Part shown: positions 19,106-27,570 of the stretch, piece by piece
How positions within the stretch are numbered: position 1 is the stretch's first letter
Layout of the letters: every line of letters begins with the position of its first letter
Source of the DNA: a virus
DNA length: 27,570 nucleotides
Direction: 5' to 3' (one strand)
Virus record (IMG/VR): IMGVR_UViG_3300020459_000051
Coordinates: 1 to 27,570 of that record
Position numbers and translations under genes: made by a program
Notes under the pieces: generated by a model
Databases searched by the model: none
What the model was told of the DNA's origin: nothing
What the model saw: only the letters and a program-made list of their open reading frames with translations

Positions 19106-22100
19106 ATGCCACAAAAGACTAACTTAAATATAAGTCCTTATTATGATGATTTTGATAAGGCAGATAATTTTTATAAAGTTCTGTTTAAACCTGGATTTCC
19201 CGTACAAGCAAGGGAACTTTCAGGATTACAATCTATCTTACAAAATCAGGTAGAACAATTTGGTAATCATATTTTTAAAGAAGGATCTATGGTTATACCT
19301 GGATCTGTAACATATGATAATACATATTTTGCGGCTAAGGTAAATGCCGATCATTTGGGAGTTGATGTTAGTATATACTTAGATTCTTTAATAAAGGATG
19401 AAGGAACAAGAGTAAGAGGTCAAAATTCTCAAATTGTTGCTAAAATTATAAATTATATTCTACCTCCAGCAGAGGGTGTAGATGAAATAACAGTATTTCT
19501 TAAGTATACAGAATCAAGTTCGACTGGAGCAAGTGAACAGTTTCCAAATGGAGAAATATTAGTACTAGATGAAAATGTAACTTATGGAAATACTACATTA
19601 AAGTCTGGTGATACTGTATTGACTTTAGTTGCTGATAATGCAACAGCAACTGGATCAGCGTTTGGTGTAGATAGTGGTGTATATTTCTTAAGAGGAACCT
19701 TTGTAGATGTCACAAAGTCTATTCTTATACTAGAACCATATTCTAATAAACCATCATATAGAGTTGGATTTGAGATTGTTGAGGAGATTATAACATCGAG
19801 TGATGATTCATCATTAAATGACAATGCTAAAGGATTTACCAATTTTGCTGCACCAGGTGCTGATAGATTCAAAATTGGTGTTAAACTAGCAAAAAAAGCA
19901 GTTGATGATTATGATGACATCAACTTTATAGAATTATTAAAGGTAAGAAAGGGTGAAGTTAAGAAAATACAAAATTCTTCAGTATATTCTGAAATTAAGA
20001 AGTATCTTGCTAAAAGAACATTTGACGAATCTGGAAATTATTCAGTAAATCCATTTAGGGTTAATCTACAGAACTCATTAAACGATGAGATAGGATCTAA
20101 TGGTGTGTATCTTAGTAATGAAAAAACAGATGAAGGTGCTGATCCATCTGACGATTTAATGTGTGTTAAATTGTCTCCAGGTAAAGCATATGTTAGAGGA
20201 TTTGATGTAGCATTGCCAGGCACAACAGTTTTAGATATAGAAAAACCTAGAGATACAAAAACTGTAAAATCTGGATCTGTTCCATTTAGAATGGGTAGTT
20301 TACTAAGAGTTAATCATAGTGAAGGTACTCCATATATTAACGTAGGGCAGAATGATGATGCTAGTCCATTATCAAACGTTGTTGAATTGTGGAATGGTAG
20401 AAAGGGTTCTAGTGCCACTCCAACTGCTGGTAATGGATTGCCAGTAGGAAAGGCAAGAGTTTACTGGTACAACCCATCAGATGCCCCATACACAGGGGAT
20501 TCAACTGAATGGGATTTGTATATGTACGATGTTCAGACATATACAGTACTACAAATTTCAAATACTGTTGATGTTGATTATCAAAAGGATATATTAGCAC
20601 CTTTGGGTAGTAAAGTAACTGGTCAAAGTAGTGGTGCTACTGGTTATGTTGATAAGCATAGAAATGGTGGAGAAATTCATGTAATTCAAACTACTGGTGC
20701 TTTTGTAAAAGGAGAAAAAATAATATTTAATGAAAGAACAAGTAATGTTGGTGTTGATACATGTACAGCGAATATATCAAATGTTATAACATATTCAACA
20801 GATGACGTAAGATCAGTTTTCCAATCAAAATCTATTGGTGGTTTCCAAGTAGATTTTAGTGCCGATTCTGTTTTATACGATAAAGTATTACCTAATTTTT
20901 CATTAACAGATCAATTAAACGTTAGTTCTAGTAGTGATTACACCTATAATTCATATTTGTCTGCTTCAGATGAACCAAGATGGTCTGAAAAAACAGCAGC
21001 AAATACTTATAATGAGACTGTAAGTTATGCTACAGCATCCACTACTGGACCTGGTTCGTCTGATATGGCTCCCATGTTTGATAGTTCAGACTCCACTTTT
21101 TTAAGTATGGGATCTGGTCATGCTGACTTAAGTATATTATGGTTAACTGATACTGTGTTATCAGATGTAGTTAAAATTACCGTTGGATATGATGGTGATG
21201 GTTGGTTAGGATTTGGTGGTGTTGGTAATAACCCTGCTAACCTTCTAAAAGTTAGTGATGGTACTGCTTATGGTGCTAATGGCGTTTCAGGTTCTGCTAC
21301 AGAAATTATATTATATGATGGAACTGCTACTAATTCACCAGCATTTAGTGGTCAATTAAAATATTTGAATTTTACTGAATATACAAACGCAGGTGGTTCT
21401 GCTCCTGCTGGTGCTGTTAAAGGTGCTTCATCAATATGTAATGTTTATTATATCAAGATTCAAAGACTATCTAATAATGTTTTAACTGAAATTACATGGT
21501 CTGCTAGTACTGGAGCTGTAACTGAGAATACTGCGAGTTGCCCCAGAAGAAGATTTTCTGGACAACTTGGTATAGGAACAGATAGTATAGTTTCATATCA
21601 AAAAACATCAACAAGTAATCCAACATATAATAGAGTATCTGCTATTTCTGCTGATGGATCTGAATTAACACTTAAAGAAGTAGCAACTATTTCTAATGTT
21701 AATGATGGAACACTTGTAAGTGGTAATAATCAATCCACATTTAGAATTAAAACTCCAAAAATTATAAATCTAAATCGATCTGGTTTATTCAGCAAATTAC
21801 CCAAGAAAAATATTTCTACAGTAGATCTTTCAGATTCTAATCTTATTATTACCCGTCAAGTTAAAGGTAAAAACCCAGATTCTACCTTTAGAATAACACT
21901 TCAAACTAGTGAATTATTTGATGGTTCTGGTAACAATGGTGCTTTAGGTATCACTACTGCGTTCTTTGAACCATTTGATGCTGAAAGATATTCTATTCAT
22001 TATAAAAATGGTGTATCTGAAGATTTAACTCAAGATAAAGTAAATATTTCAAATAATGGTGCTACTGTTGTATTTTCTGGATTAAAATATAGTAGTGCTG

Positions 22101-25100
22101 ATACTGCGGCAATACCAGCTACAATTAATTGTACATTAAAAAAACTTGGACTTGCTAGTAAGCAAAAAAATTATATTAGAAGTGGTACGGTAGCAGTAAC
22201 AAAGACTATCAGTATATCTAATGAAAGTACTAATTTAGGTATTAGTAGTGCTTATGGATTAAGGGTTGAAGATAAAGAAATATCATTAAATATTCCAGAT
22301 GTTGCTAAGGTTCATGCTGTATATGAATCTAAGGATAAAATAGCACCAACACTTGATAAATTGACTTTTGTTTCTGGATTAGGTTTAGCAAATAATACCT
22401 TTATTGGCGAAAAAATTGTTGGTGATGATAGTAGAGCTATAGGACAGATTGTAACTCGTGTTAATGATGAAAATATTGAATTTGTTTATTTGAATAATAA
22501 TAAATTTGTAAAAGGCGAATCAGTAACTTTTAAAGAATCAAATATTGTTTCTGTTTGTCAAAAAGTAACTGAAGGTAATTATATTGATAGAACATCAAAC
22601 TTTACTTTAGATAAAGGTCATAGAAAACAATTCTATGATTATTCTAGAATAGTAAGAAAAGGTACATCAGCAAAACCATCTAAGAGATTATTAGTTGTTT
22701 ACGACTACTTTGAATCTGCTGAAAATAGTAATGGCGATTTTTATACGGTTAATTCTTATACTAAGGAAAGATATACCCATGATATTCCTGTAGTTGGTGG
22801 TAATAGAGCATCTGATATTCTTGATTTTAGACCAAGAGTTAAAACGTTTGTTCCAAATGATACTGCTGGACAACAAACAACCTCTTCACCATTCTCTTAT
22901 AATAGTAGAGTACTTGAAACTGATACAAGATATGTTGTAACTCCAGATGAGAGTACTATTATTGGATATAGTTATTACTTACCTAGAATTGATAAATTAG
23001 TAATCAACAAATTTGAAGAAGTTAAATTGATTAAAGGTGTATCTGATGATAAACCAGCACCTCCAACTGAATTGGGTGATTCAATGGAAGTTGCTCAGAT
23101 ATCACTTCCACCATATTTGTATGACCCTATGAAAGGTCCTTCTATTAGACTATATGATAATAGAAGATTTACCATGAGAGATATTGGTAAATTGGAGAAG
23201 AGAATTGACAATCTTGAGGTAATGACTTCTCTTACTGCTTTAGAATTGGATACAAAATCTCTTCAAGTAAAGGATGCTGATGGTTTAGATAGATTTAAAT
23301 CTGGTTTTGTAGTTAATGACTTTAAGAATAGAGATTTTATTAGTTTTGCTGAAGATACCTCTAGATGTGATGTAGACACTGTTAATAAAGAATTAATTAG
23401 TGCTGTTGATTTTTGGTCTATGAGAGCAGAATTGGCATTAAATCCTGCAATTGCAGTAGAAACTGCTGATATGTCATCCAATTTAAGTCTTCTAGATTCA
23501 AATTGCCAGAAAACTGGAGATTTAATAACACTTAAGTATAATGAGACTGAATGGATTAATCAACCACAGGCATCAGGTGTTGAGAACATTAACCCATTTA
23601 ATGTTATTGTTTATGTTGGTGGTATTATTTTAGATCCACCATCTGATAACTGGACTAGAACAATTTATATTGATAATCATAGAGTTGAATCTACTGGAGC
23701 AACTTGGAACGAAATATCCAATATAGTTTCTGATAATACAACTTCAAATACTGCTGTAGATGTAACAGTTGAAGAAATTGATCCTGGCGAAGATGATCCA
23801 GATACACATGGAATGTTTGATGGTAATCATATTGACACTACTACAACTACTACAACTACTACAACACAAACTGTAGTTACATCATTTACTAATCAATTGG
23901 AAGGTCCTAGTAGGGAATTTAATTATGTTGAAAGTGTTAAGATTAGTGGTGAATCTGATCAGTTTATGCGTTCTAGAAATGTAGCGTTTACTGCTAACGG
24001 TTTAAAACCATATACAAAGCATATTCATAAGTTAGATAGTGGTGTACCTGATATAGTTCCCAAATTAGTAGAAATCTCAATGTCATCTGGATCTACTGGA
24101 TTCAATGTTGGAGAAAATGTTAGAGTCATGAATGGATCTACGCAAATTGGATACATCAAGTCTGCTGCTCCAAGTCATAAGTTTGGCGACTCTTCAAGAC
24201 CAGAGGTTGGTGCTGGACTAGGATCTCCTAATCGTACTGTTGAGAAATATTCAGTTGATCCATTTGACAGATCTCGTCCAGGTCCTGCTGATACATATTC
24301 AGCAACATCTGTATTGTTTAATACTGATGTTTATGCCTTAGCTAATAATGAAAATTATTATGGATATGTTGTTAAAGGTGCTAAACTTGTGGGAGAAACA
24401 AGTGGAACTGAAGCAACTATAACCAATACCGATCTAATGTCTGATCAATGGGGTGATGTATTAGGTGCTTTCTTCTTTAGAAATGCTAATGCTACACCAA
24501 CACCATCAGTATTATTCTATACAGGTACGAAGACATTTAGACTTACTGCTAATACAACTGGGGGATTTGTTCCAGCAGGTAGCACTGCTCTTGCTAGTGA
24601 TGCCAGTGGAGTCTATACAGGAACAGGAACTATTCTAACTCAGAATACAAGTACTGTTGGAGTTAGAAATCCACCAGAACCTGCACAAAAACCTAATGAA
24701 ACTACATCTACAGTAACTACAAATTCAACATCATCTACAACAAGAGTAGAAGCACCTTATAGAGATCCTCTAGCACAAACATTTACTGTTGATGAAACTG
24801 GAGCATTCTTGACATCATTTGATGTTTACTTCTATAAAAAGGATCCAAATTCTAAAGTTTTTGTTGAACTTAGAGAAGTTGAATTAGGGACACCGACAAG
24901 TTTCCTTGTTCAAGACTTTGCTCAAGTAGCAATAAATCCAAATGATATTACAGTATCAGATGATGCTACAATACCAACTACAATTAATTTTCCATCACCA
25001 ATTTATCTGGAAAGTGGTAAAGAATATGCTTTAGTATTCTTATCACCTGGATCTGATGAATATGAAATGTGGGTTGCCACTATGGGTCAGAAGAGTGTTA

Positions 25101-27322
25101 CTCCACCTGTAGGTTTACCTGCAACTAGTGATCAATCCCAATTTGGTGTTGTAACTAAGCAGTATATTGGTGGTAGTTTATTTAAATCCCAAAACGGTAC
25201 TATTTGGACACCAAGTCAATATCAAGATCTCAAATTTACTCTTAGAAAAGCATTATTTGTTCCATTTGGTACTACTACATTCTATAATAGTCCAATTGAA
25301 CCAGGTAATCTTAATACACAGGCATTGCCAAGTAATCCAATTAGAACTTTACCTAGAAAGATTAAATTTGGCGTAACTCAGATTACTAAAGCAGAAGCAG
25401 TACTTATACCAGTTGGTAGAAAAATTAGTACTGGACTAATTACAGATTCTGAAGATGACAGTATTACTGGTGTTATTGAAGAGAGAGGAGCACCTATTGA
25501 TACTACTGGTGGATCTGGATCTGCCTTAAAGGATTATGGTGTTGAAGTTACTATAATTGGTAATGGATTCAATAGTAAAAATAGTAGTACTGGAGCATTA
25601 GAATCAAGTTTTACAGAAGCTTCATGTTCTTTAAAATCTATTAATGGATCAGGTACTGGTGCTACTGCATCATTGACTTTTGTTAATGGTAGTATTTCCC
25701 AGATTAATAGTGTAAGTAATGCTGGTTCTGGATATGTTGTTGGTGAAGTTTTAGAAGTTGATGTTACCAATACGGGTAATATTTTATCTGGGGCTGCTGC
25801 TAGAATAGTAATTACAAAAATTACAGAAGATATTGATACATTATGGTTAACTGATGTTCAAGGTGAGAAGTTTGTTATTAATGACAATATAATACATTAT
25901 GGTACTAATAATGATACTAGAACTGTTTTAGCAAATAACGCAAAGGTTGATGTTGAATCAACGGTTGTGAGTGAAGTCTATAGTGGAAATGTTATTGAAG
26001 TAATTCAACATAACCATGCTCATCATGGATCTAATAATAAGATTACTATCGAAAATGTTGAACCAGATACAACGAAAGTATCAATTACTGAAGATCTGGC
26101 AACAGACGGAACCCAAGTAACAGTTTCTGATATATCACCATTCCAAACCTTTGCTGGTATAACAAGTGATAGGGGTGAGGCATTAATAGAAGGTGAAGTT
26201 GTTCAATATATTGTTCAAAGTACTAGTCCTGCTATTCTAAGTTTGAGTTCTAGAGGATTTGGATCATCTGCTGCTTTATCACATTCTGATGGAGCAAGTA
26301 TTCAACCATATCAAGTCAATGGTATGCCATTGGTGAAGATCAACACTACACATGATATTCCAACTAGTACTGGATTAAAAGATGTTACTAACATTGATAA
26401 TTATTTCTTAGAATTGGATAGAGGAACTGGTAACAGAGCAGCTGGAAAAAATCAAATAAGTTTTGTTAGTGAGAAAGCTGTTGGTGGATCAACTGTTGGC
26501 ATATCTCAAAACCATCAGTTTAGTAGCCTTTCCGCACAATGTAATGTAATTACACCAGGCAAAACTCGTGCTAGTGCTTCATTTAGAACTATAAGTGGTA
26601 CTAGTGCTAGTGGTAATGAAGTATCATTTATTGATCAGGGATTTGAACCTACAATTCTTAATGAGACTACATTCTTCCCAACTCCTAGAATGGCTGCTTC
26701 TAAAGTTAATGAAGCAAATCAGTTAGATACATTACCTAAGAATAAGTCATTAAGTTTAAAGGTTGATATGTCTTCAAGTGATTCTAATTTATCTCCAGTA
26801 TTGGATGTTAAAAATGCTACACTTATTTTAGGTAGAAACAAAATTAACAACCCAATAGGTGAAGACAATTATGATTCAGATTCTAGAACTAATCAACTAA
26901 GTGGAGATCCTCATGGATCAATATTTGTTTCAAATAGAGTTAATTTGAAACAACCAGCATCTTCATTGAAAGTATTAGTATCAGGTAATGTTAGACCAGA
27001 AGCAGACTTTAGAGTATTCTATAAATTATTCACTGCTGATTCTAGTGAAGTTTCTCAAACATATAGACCATTTCCTGGATTTAAAAATTTAATTGACACG
27101 AATGGTGATGGATTTGGTGATGAAATTATTGACGAATCTATGAATGATGGTAGATCAGATGCTAAAGTTAAATCAAGTGGATCAAATTCTTTCTCAGAGT
27201 ATCAATTCTCTATTGATAATTTAGAACAATTTAGCGGATTTACAATTAAAATTGTAATGACATCTACTAACGAATCTGTTCCTGTTAGACTTAAAGACTT
27301 TAGAGCAATTGCCCTAGCATAA
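19106..27322 (+). CDS. DUF4815-type giant baseplate/tail structural protein
   Basis: The 2738-residue product opens like DUF4815 proteins: SPYYDDFDKADNFYKVLFKPGFPVQARELSGLQ...FGNHIFKEGSMV (residues 10-63). It continues with SPGKAYVRGFDV (~357), YTHDIPVVGGNRASDILDFRPRV (~1228-1250) and a charged helix, likely a coiled coil, MRDIGKLEKRIDNLEVMTSLTALE (~1357-1380). A poly-Thr linker follows (~1578-1587), then DPLAQTFTVDETGAFLTSFDVYF (~1886-1908), a β-domain common in phage tail proteins. GxGY and HGASIQPY-like repeats follow. The end (DTNGDGFGDE at ~2664, then a EYQFSIDNLEQFSGFTIKIVMTS tail) is typical of the group. A ~200-residue segment (612-812) appears inserted into the N-terminal part. It lies where T4 has genes 9-11, so it probably belongs to the outer wedge, but I cannot tie it to one of them. 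AAAGAAA before the ATG is the likely ribosome site. Confidence 0.85.
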   Translation: MPQKTNLNISPYYDDFDKADNFYKVLFKPGFPVQARELSGLQSILQNQVEQFGNHIFKEGSMVIPGSVTYDNTYFAAKVNADHLGVDVSIYLDSLIKDEGTRVRGQNSQIVAKIINYILPPAEGVDEITVFLKYTESSSTGASEQFPNGEILVLDENVTYGNTTLKSGDTVLTLVADNATATGSAFGVDSGVYFLRGTFVDVTKSILILEPYSNKPSYRVGFEIVEEIITSSDDSSLNDNAKGFTNFAAPGADRFKIGVKLAKKAVDDYDDINFIELLKVRKGEVKKIQNSSVYSEIKKYLAKRTFDESGNYSVNPFRVNLQNSLNDEIGSNGVYLSNEKTDEGADPSDDLMCVKLSPGKAYVRGFDVALPGTTVLDIEKPRDTKTVKSGSVPFRMGSLLRVNHSEGTPYINVGQNDDASPLSNVVELWNGRKGSSATPTAGNGLPVGKARVYWYNPSDAPYTGDSTEWDLYMYDVQTYTVLQISNTVDVDYQKDILAPLGSKVTGQSSGATGYVDKHRNGGEIHVIQTTGAFVKGEKIIFNERTSNVGVDTCTANISNVITYSTDDVRSVFQSKSIGGFQVDFSADSVLYDKVLPNFSLTDQLNVSSSSDYTYNSYLSASDEPRWSEKTAANTYNETVSYATASTTGPGSSDMAPMFDSSDSTFLSMGSGHADLSILWLTDTVLSDVVKITVGYDGDGWLGFGGVGNNPANLLKVSDGTAYGANGVSGSATEIILYDGTATNSPAFSGQLKYLNFTEYTNAGGSAPAGAVKGASSICNVYYIKIQRLSNNVLTEITWSASTGAVTENTASCPRRRFSGQLGIGTDSIVSYQKTSTSNPTYNRVSAISADGSELTLKEVATISNVNDGTLVSGNNQSTFRIKTPKIINLNRSGLFSKLPKKNISTVDLSDSNLIITRQVKGKNPDSTFRITLQTSELFDGSGNNGALGITTAFFEPFDAERYSIHYKNGVSEDLTQDKVNISNNGATVVFSGLKYSSADTAAIPATINCTLKKLGLASKQKNYIRSGTVAVTKTISISNESTNLGISSAYGLRVEDKEISLNIPDVAKVHAVYESKDKIAPTLDKLTFVSGLGLANNTFIGEKIVGDDSRAIGQIVTRVNDENIEFVYLNNNKFVKGESVTFKESNIVSVCQKVTEGNYIDRTSNFTLDKGHRKQFYDYSRIVRKGTSAKPSKRLLVVYDYFESAENSNGDFYTVNSYTKERYTHDIPVVGGNRASDILDFRPRVKTFVPNDTAGQQTTSSPFSYNSRVLETDTRYVVTPDESTIIGYSYYLPRIDKLVINKFEEVKLIKGVSDDKPAPPTELGDSMEVAQISLPPYLYDPMKGPSIRLYDNRRFTMRDIGKLEKRIDNLEVMTSLTALELDTKSLQVKDADGLDRFKSGFVVNDFKNRDFISFAEDTSRCDVDTVNKELISAVDFWSMRAELALNPAIAVETADMSSNLSLLDSNCQKTGDLITLKYNETEWINQPQASGVENINPFNVIVYVGGIILDPPSDNWTRTIYIDNHRVESTGATWNEISNIVSDNTTSNTAVDVTVEEIDPGEDDPDTHGMFDGNHIDTTTTTTTTTTQTVVTSFTNQLEGPSREFNYVESVKISGESDQFMRSRNVAFTANGLKPYTKHIHKLDSGVPDIVPKLVEISMSSGSTGFNVGENVRVMNGSTQIGYIKSAAPSHKFGDSSRPEVGAGLGSPNRTVEKYSVDPFDRSRPGPADTYSATSVLFNTDVYALANNENYYGYVVKGAKLVGETSGTEATITNTDLMSDQWGDVLGAFFFRNANATPTPSVLFYTGTKTFRLTANTTGGFVPAGSTALASDASGVYTGTGTILTQNTSTVGVRNPPEPAQKPNETTSTVTTNSTSSTTRVEAPYRDPLAQTFTVDETGAFLTSFDVYFYKKDPNSKVFVELREVELGTPTSFLVQDFAQVAINPNDITVSDDATIPTTINFPSPIYLESGKEYALVFLSPGSDEYEMWVATMGQKSVTPPVGLPATSDQSQFGVVTKQYIGGSLFKSQNGTIWTPSQYQDLKFTLRKALFVPFGTTTFYNSPIEPGNLNTQALPSNPIRTLPRKIKFGVTQITKAEAVLIPVGRKISTGLITDSEDDSITGVIEERGAPIDTTGGSGSALKDYGVEVTIIGNGFNSKNSSTGALESSFTEASCSLKSINGSGTGATASLTFVNGSISQINSVSNAGSGYVVGEVLEVDVTNTGNILSGAAARIVITKITEDIDTLWLTDVQGEKFVINDNIIHYGTNNDTRTVLANNAKVDVESTVVSEVYSGNVIEVIQHNHAHHGSNNKITIENVEPDTTKVSITEDLATDGTQVTVSDISPFQTFAGITSDRGEALIEGEVVQYIVQSTSPAILSLSSRGFGSSAALSHSDGASIQPYQVNGMPLVKINTTHDIPTSTGLKDVTNIDNYFLELDRGTGNRAAGKNQISFVSEKAVGGSTVGISQNHQFSSLSAQCNVITPGKTRASASFRTISGTSASGNEVSFIDQGFEPTILNETTFFPTPRMAASKVNEANQLDTLPKNKSLSLKVDMSSSDSNLSPVLDVKNATLILGRNKINNPIGEDNYDSDSRTNQLSGDPHGSIFVSNRVNLKQPASSLKVLVSGNVRPEADFRVFYKLFTADSSEVSQTYRPFPGFKNLIDTNGDGFGDEIIDESMNDGRSDAKVKSSGSNSFSEYQFSIDNLEQFSGFTIKIVMTSTNESVPVRLKDFRAIALA
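20939..21541 (+). other. inserted ~200-residue segment in the DUF4815 protein
   Basis: Residues ~612-812 interrupt the expected DUF4815 order between FSLTDQLNVSSSSDYTYN and RRRFSGQLGIGTDSIVSYQ. The segment is rich in Gly, Ser and Thr, has a ITVGYDGDGWLGFGGVG core and two Cys (SSICNVYYIK, ENTASCPRR), and lacks the GxGY repeats of the rest. It could be a β-sandwich ligand-binding domain; I do not recognise the family. Confidence 0.5.
23835..23871 (+). repeat. poly-Thr coding microsatellite
   Basis: A period-9 ACTACTACA-type tract coding for ten consecutive threonines (D-T10-Q-T). It links the acidic VEEIDPGEDDPDTHG segment to the next β-rich region of the DUF4815 protein and looks like a flexible linker. 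Such tracts can change length by slippage in frame. Confidence 0.85.
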
Positions 27323-27327
27323 CAATT

Positions 27328-27335
27328 AATAAATA
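27328..27335 (+). promoter_or_regulatory. candidate T4-type late promoter (AATAAATA) before the last gene
   Basis: AATAAATA differs from TATAAATA at the first base only and stands five bases after the stop of the DUF4815 gene. The predicted start of transcription, about 6 bases past the octamer, is near 27341, inside the left arm of the hairpin at 27333-27359. Its position in an intergenic gap between same-strand genes parallels the two exact promoters at 67 and 17458. Confidence 0.55.
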
Positions 27336-27359
27336 CCTATAAGCAATACTTATAGGTAT
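27333..27359 (+). promoter_or_regulatory. 11-bp perfect hairpin covering a ribosome binding site
   Basis: ATACCTATAAG (27333-27343) and CTTATAGGTAT (27349-27359) are perfectly complementary with a five-base loop, CAATA. The right arm contains TAGG (27353-27356), six bases before the TTG start at 27363, so the folded RNA would hide the Shine-Dalgarno. No T-run follows, so this is not a typical intrinsic terminator. In T4, hairpins of this design (for example in front of gene e) block translation of read-through transcripts while late transcripts start inside the stem. Confidence 0.75.
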
Positions 27360-27362
27360 ATC

Positions 27363-27570
27363 TTGAAGTCATTCAAAAATTTTTTAAACGAAGCTGCTAA
27401 TGCTATAATAAAGTTAGGTGATAGTGGATGGGCAACTAGACTTAAAGGTAAAGGTGGGTATACTGATTCTAGTGGTGAATGGTATTTTAAAACGACAAGA
27501 GAATTATTTAAAAAGTCAAAATATAATGGAGATTTGAAGAAATCTGATCTCAATAAATACAACGGTAAGA
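27363..27570 (+). CDS. 5' part of a capsid-targeted (internal-protein-like) gene, cut by window end
   Basis: An open frame runs from TTG at 27363 to the window edge (69 codons). No in-frame ATG or GTG lies upstream in the gap, and TAGG sits six bases before the TTG. The N-terminus reads (M)KSFKNFLNEAANAIIKLG. This matches the pattern of the T4 capsid-targeting sequence MKTYQEFIAE|A of internal proteins, including a LNE|A site for the gp21 prohead protease (L/I-x-E, cut after E). The rest is Lys-rich and basic (LKGKGGY, TRELFKKSKYNGDLKKSDLNKYNGK), as expected of a DNA-associated head protein. If so, it would be packaged in the head and perhaps injected. Function of the mature protein is unknown; the antisense frame here is a shadow. 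Confidence 0.65.
   Translation, partial: MKSFKNFLNEAANAIIKLGDSGWATRLKGKGGYTDSSGEWYFKTTRELFKKSKYNGDLKKSDLNKYNGK

Follow-up and report, generated by a model that had tools for sequence, protein, structure and literature searches.

A T4-type capsid-targeting tag in a hypervariable cyanophage locus points to a candidate packaged internal protein

The internal proteins Ip1-3 of bacteriophage T4 are packaged by virtue of their leader and injected into the host, where each blocks a particular GmrSD enzyme; the leader is all that these proteins have in common (PMC12373910). Both ipII and ipIII start with MKTYQEFIAE|A. Targeting to the T4 capsid rests mainly on residues 4 and 7 of the leader and processing on residues 8 and 10 (PMC9026906), and lysines of a T4 internal protein touch DNA phosphates (PMC3012670). 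Little is known about cargo that cyanophages inject together with their DNA, and a search for literature linking capsid targeting sequences with cyanophages found nothing beyond a reference title.

We analyzed a linear IMG/VR virus fragment of 27,570 bases (hereafter the window); it derives from a T4-like phage of the Prochlorococcus type that is close to P-SSM2. Compared with P-SSM2, the window carries gp25-, gp6-, gp7-, gp8- and gp10-like genes in this order; no head genes were found in the fragment. The gp10-like gene stops at 27322 and, after a gap of 40 bases, is followed by a TTG-initiated ORF that is open to the contig end and whose translation starts MKSFKNFLNEAANAIIKLGDSGWATRLKGKGGY. 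The features of this region are:

19106-27322, plus strand, gp10-like structural gene upstream of the tagged ORF; its P-SSM2 counterpart is at the position of T4-GC 109
27328-27335, plus strand, T4-late-promoter-like box AATAAATA, identified by consensus match only
27333-27359, plus strand, perfect hairpin of 11 bp with a 5-nt loop (z -5.4)
27352-27356, plus strand, possible ribosome-binding stretch ATAGG, 6 nt before the TTG, proposed from sequence only
27363-27569, plus strand, truncated CDS with TTG start (69 of ~88 codons), candidate packaged internal protein of cassette family T4-GC 111
27363-27392, plus strand, capsid-targeting-type tag MKSFKNFLNE (10 codons) with predicted cleavage after E10, matching MKTYQEFIAE of T4 ipII/ipIII and the targeting-sequence positions 4, 7, 8 and 10 (PMC9026906)
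27393-27569, plus strand, predicted mature basic body AANAIIKLGDSGWATRLKGKGGY, incomplete at the contig end (pI 9.8; no family match)

TTG is the sole start codon available in the frame of this ORF, and the translation from 27363 to the contig end reads MKSFKNFLNEAANAIIKLGDSGWATRLKGKGGYTDSSGEWYFKTTRELFKKSKYNGDLKKSDLNKYNGK. The full gene is represented by the closest relatives, in three related loci (L002, L003 and L005), each 88 aa long and very basic (pI 9.8), with the same TTG start and 77-81% identical to the window ORF; between the window ORF and the L002 relative, dN is 0.10 and dS 0.29. The orthologue in P-SSM2 is PSSM2_115. Searches of the ORF and its full-length relatives against Pfam, PHROGs, NCBIfam and PADLOC gave chance-level matches only, and PDB sequence searches with this family and with the T4-GC 110 family described below gave nothing useful. 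The AlphaFold model of the family was poor (pLDDT 57), which made a PDB search with it meaningless. An antisense ORF at 27350-27562 is not conserved: its start shifts among relatives, and in L005 the frame is interrupted.

The initial annotation had aligned KSFKNFLNE|A with MKTYQEFIAE|A and lacked the initiator; once this residue is included, the register equals that of T4 exactly, with F4, F7, L8, E10 and A11 and a gp21-type site LNE|A. Its reading of a gp21 motif followed by a basic body also holds, as the body after LNE|A is Lys-rich with a pI of 9.8. The tag spans 10 N-terminal residues, with aromatics at positions 4 and 7 and its gp21 site at residues 8-10, like those of T4 IPI, IPII and IPIII. 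At the composition of the window, a match to M[KR].[FY]..F[LI].E[AGS] has a chance of 5e-7 per start, so that ~1e-4 matches are expected in the window by chance (226 starts of ORFs of at least 50 aa). In P-SSM2, four annotated gene starts carry the tag (PSSM2_114, PSSM2_115, PSSM2_194, which is GC 190, and PSSM2_211). Among the window's ORFs of at least 50 aa, the start at 27363 is the only one that fits the pattern.

In profile comparisons, exactly residues 1-12 aligned with T4 IPII and nothing beyond, and a weak match to IPIII was led by the same N-terminus. Homology of the body to T4 internal proteins, tested against IPII and IPIII, was absent: the body of the window protein is unrelated to these two proteins past about residue 12. 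A positive control, in which the tag pattern in degenerate DNA form was run on the whole T4 genome, returned ipII, ipIII, gene 61.1 and, spuriously, one in-frame match inside rnlA, which indicates that the pattern can pick non-cargo positions; IPI was missed, and the backward control pattern gave no matches on the same genome. Gene 61.1 of T4 (54 aa, hypothetical; NC_000866 18966-19130, minus strand; L232:467-631) has the tag-like N-terminus MKTFKEFIKE and is a possible unrecognised internal protein.

The placement of the gene beside baseplate genes, noted from the outset, is correct; more exactly, the gene occupies a hypervariable slot whose left border is the 3' end of the gp10-like gene and which extends to T4-GC 112. 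This position differs from that of the T4 ip genes, which lie beside e and denV. Related loci (80 in all) were gathered using T4-GC 112, the gene on the downstream side, as the query, and the slot proved to be empty or to hold one to three small genes. Slot ORFs of at least 40 aa were called blind to the tag, giving 93 in 51 Kyanoviridae loci. A start of the form M[KR].[FYWL]..F was present in 69 of these 93 ORFs compared to none of the 246 ORFs elsewhere in these loci (Fisher p 8e-52), counts that do not represent independent events because the IMG/VR loci are related to one another. Of the 24 slot ORFs without this start, most are one conserved untagged protein of ~45 aa, and GC 110 genes with MI[ST]FQEFL account for four. 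The conserved ~45-aa protein (MRNSVNPATKFIIDPSGSGKLVKFHLPIDLR) is found at L019:3569-3727, L021:3604-3738 and others.

Cassette bodies range from 45 to 218 aa, are varied in sequence and are partly mosaic. Mean identity is 74% for the tags (first 10 residues) and 32% for the bodies (24% when shuffled); tag identity remains at 70% in the 370 pairs whose bodies are less than 30% identical. Single-linkage clustering lumps 48 bodies via common C-terminal modules, and for this reason we quote no number of unrelated body families. By sequence, the slot is a hypervariable cassette in which the tag is kept and the bodies are swapped. The mosaic bodies and C-terminal modules, together with the constant junction at which ATG-start cassettes overlap the preceding stop codon, are also in line with a common N-terminus that is a mere recombination junction for small-gene swaps and plays no targeting role. 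However, it is the protein sequence that is conserved, with codons that vary and start contexts that differ, and the tag is also found at unlinked loci and in phages that are distant, so that we regard such a junction as highly improbable.

The start contexts are of two kinds. In most cassettes the ATG overlaps the previous stop, whereas the TTG-start members, the window included, have instead an AAATA late-promoter-like box and a hairpin. The hairpin stands directly upstream of every TTG-start member and only of those, and it moves with these genes into different upstream contexts. The box reads TATAAATA in L002, L005 and L031; in the window, TATAAATA also stands before the gp25-like gene and the gp8-like gene. 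The hairpin loop is CAATA in some copies and the reverse complement TATTG in others (window 27333-27359; L003:5973; L031:3710), as if inverted between copies.

The pI exceeds 9 in 58/58 cassette bodies (median 10.0) compared to 6% of 125 other small ORFs there. A strict [LI]xE site is present in 37/58 cassette members; the other 21 mostly have FxE, and cleavage may therefore vary. The slot thus resembles the T4 internal proteins in its short basic bodies, in several genes with only a leader in common, and in a variable locus in a T4-like phage. The same charge would suit packaged head proteins that condense DNA or balance its charge, whose basic bodies would neutralise the packaged DNA without any target in the host: strong basicity is common to all 58 bodies, several are short and of low complexity, and there are the lysine contacts of T4 internal proteins with DNA phosphates (PMC3012670). 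Such a role is nevertheless unlikely. Exchange of the bodies looks as if diversifying selection were at work, some relatives have an empty slot, and enzymes occur among the tagged members (a SAM lyase, cytidylyltransferases and a DPBB domain), a variety of bodies and enzymes that a pure counter-ion role would not need.

The SAM lyase is encoded by T4-GC 110 (PSSM2_114), which in P-SSM2 lies between the gp10-like gene and the orthologue of the window gene and is absent from the window. Its copies with the capsid-type N-terminus MRTFQEFLQLCEGG are:

L006:7495-8004 (PSSM2_114), T4-GC 110 with the tag
L003:5326-5835, T4-GC 110 with the tag
L019:3063-3572, T4-GC 110 with the tag

The family matches Pfam PF23780 above the cutoff (E 9e-8 to 2e-12), and the match is stronger in tagged relatives elsewhere (MKTFKQFIDESSLAR, E 2e-12). 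The structural model has a core pLDDT of ~70-90, and its best PDB matches are three T3 SAMase chains of 7ock, the complex of T3 SAMase with MAT (probability 1.00, TM 0.5-0.6, E 2e-3). Y66 and E76 are invariant in the family; the catalytic Glu of the Svi3-3 SAM lyase is E69. Judged by Pfam and by the fold of the model, T4-GC 110 is a SAM lyase, like the phage enzymes T3 SAMase and Svi3-3. It differs from T3 SAMase in its tag, which is of the capsid type and has LCE|G. The T3 enzyme is made first after entry, and we know of no case in which it is packaged. It is a known counter-restriction enzyme (PMC7877911; PMC8406200). T4-GC 110 provides the best evidence for anti-defence functions in the slot, and this evidence concerns the neighbour, not the window gene. 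In phage S-SZBM1, the same domain is the C-terminal part of a 707-aa protein and is joined to the rest at ITYREFIAEG.

The tag is also found on genes far from the slot (GC 190, GC 206 and gp6, gp13 and gp14 of S-CREM2). This distribution, which takes in unrelated enzymes, and the loci that lack the cassette and retain intact flanking genes make it very unlikely that the window product is a component of the neck, tail or baseplate, or an assembly factor, with an N-terminus that docks to a neighbouring structural protein, despite its position between the gp10-like and gp13 genes and the annotation of the gene after the slot as virion structural in P-SSM2.

Two sets of published data place tagged proteins in virions. 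Firstly, experiments have identified T4-GC 190 as a cyanophage virion protein (PMC3037559). This cytidylyltransferase starts MKKFSAFLNEA in S-SM1 and MKKFSAFLSEA in Syn9, and the S-SM1 protein has a tag and site near-identical to those of the window protein; unlike the window gene, GC 190 is a core gene for a large enzyme at another locus and no variable cassette. Secondly, mass spectrometry of S-CREM2 is reported to have detected four non-lysin enzymes in virions (PMC10665884). Three of the four carry the tag and a gp21-type site (SAM hydrolase, MKDFDSFLEE; kinase, MKRFDAFLTE; cytidylyltransferase, MKNFSSFLTE) compared to one, gp13, among the other 215 genes of this phage (p 9e-6). In the section of that report on which we draw, injection of the SAM hydrolase is suggested with no mention of an N-terminal signal, and its authors warn of possible co-purification (PMC10665884). 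In S-CREM2 gp12 (Cas9-like, reported in virions; L220:7704-10313), CTG-RFASFMAEA is found 16 codons into the annotated gene; this internal match was left out of the tagged count, and if the true start were at this CTG, gp12 may be a fourth tagged virion enzyme.

The gp23 proteins have cleavage-type sites near residue 55, FLSE|A in P-SSM2 and LTE|A in S-CREM2, and gp21 (PF03420) is present in both phages; the sites of the tags therefore fit the protease of P-SSM2 and S-CREM2. A search for gp21 in four related IMG/VR fragments did not find it.

We consider it likely that the window gene belongs to a cyanophage effector locus and encodes a packaged protein that resembles the T4 internal proteins and is processed by gp21. 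MKSFKNFLNE would bind the scaffold core during prohead assembly, and the prohead protease gp21 would cut after E10 and leave a basic body of ~78 residues in the head with the DNA. The body would then be ejected with the genome and act early in the cyanobacterial host, most likely on a restriction-type or other first-response defence. The slot from the gp10-like gene to T4-GC 112 would correspond, in cyanomyoviruses, to the ip loci of T-even phages, its bodies being swapped and its tag retained. For the window protein we infer packaging, cleavage, injection and target by analogy with T4 and with the tagged proteins that others found in virions. Packaging, the first interpretation of the initial annotation, is supported, and the window protein is very probably packaged; it is probably cut after E10, and its ejection with the DNA is reasonably probable. 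Injection combined with an anti-defence role, the second interpretation, is plausible by the same analogy, and that the protein counters host defence is put forward tentatively, as somewhat short of an even prospect; unlike for T4 internal proteins, there is no evidence of a GmrSD-type target in the host group of the window phage.

Whether marine T4-like phages use a T4-type capsid tag as a general loader of swappable injected effectors, the SAM lyase included, with a dedicated locus between the gp10-like gene and GC 112, appears evenly balanced. If such loading takes place, the SAM lyase would shut off SAM-dependent restriction from DNA entry on. Should the tag function as it does in T4, many small genes of abundant ocean phages that are now labelled 'hypothetical' would become predicted head cargo, the presence of SAM hydrolase, kinase and cytidylyltransferase in cyanophage virions would be accounted for, and one locus would be marked for host-specific counter-defence genes.

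Several further tagged genes were observed. At L085:3345-4001, a tagged cassette gene of 218 aa looks ADP-ribosyltransferase-like by eye (FHGSS, AYFTTDPSRAQQYA), for which T4 Alt would be a parallel; family libraries and the PDB gave this reading no support, and it therefore stays a lead. A tagged 51-aa protein, MKTFKQFQEEWSNKYKKSIDCSNPKGFSQRAHCAGRKKRAKGEETKSKPVE, recurs in many tagged IMG/VR loci (L107, L114, L117, L121, L122 and others). Some contigs carry several MKTFKQF-tagged genes with unrelated bodies (four in L148, two each in L147 and L175), suggesting further effector islands, perhaps outside cyanophages.
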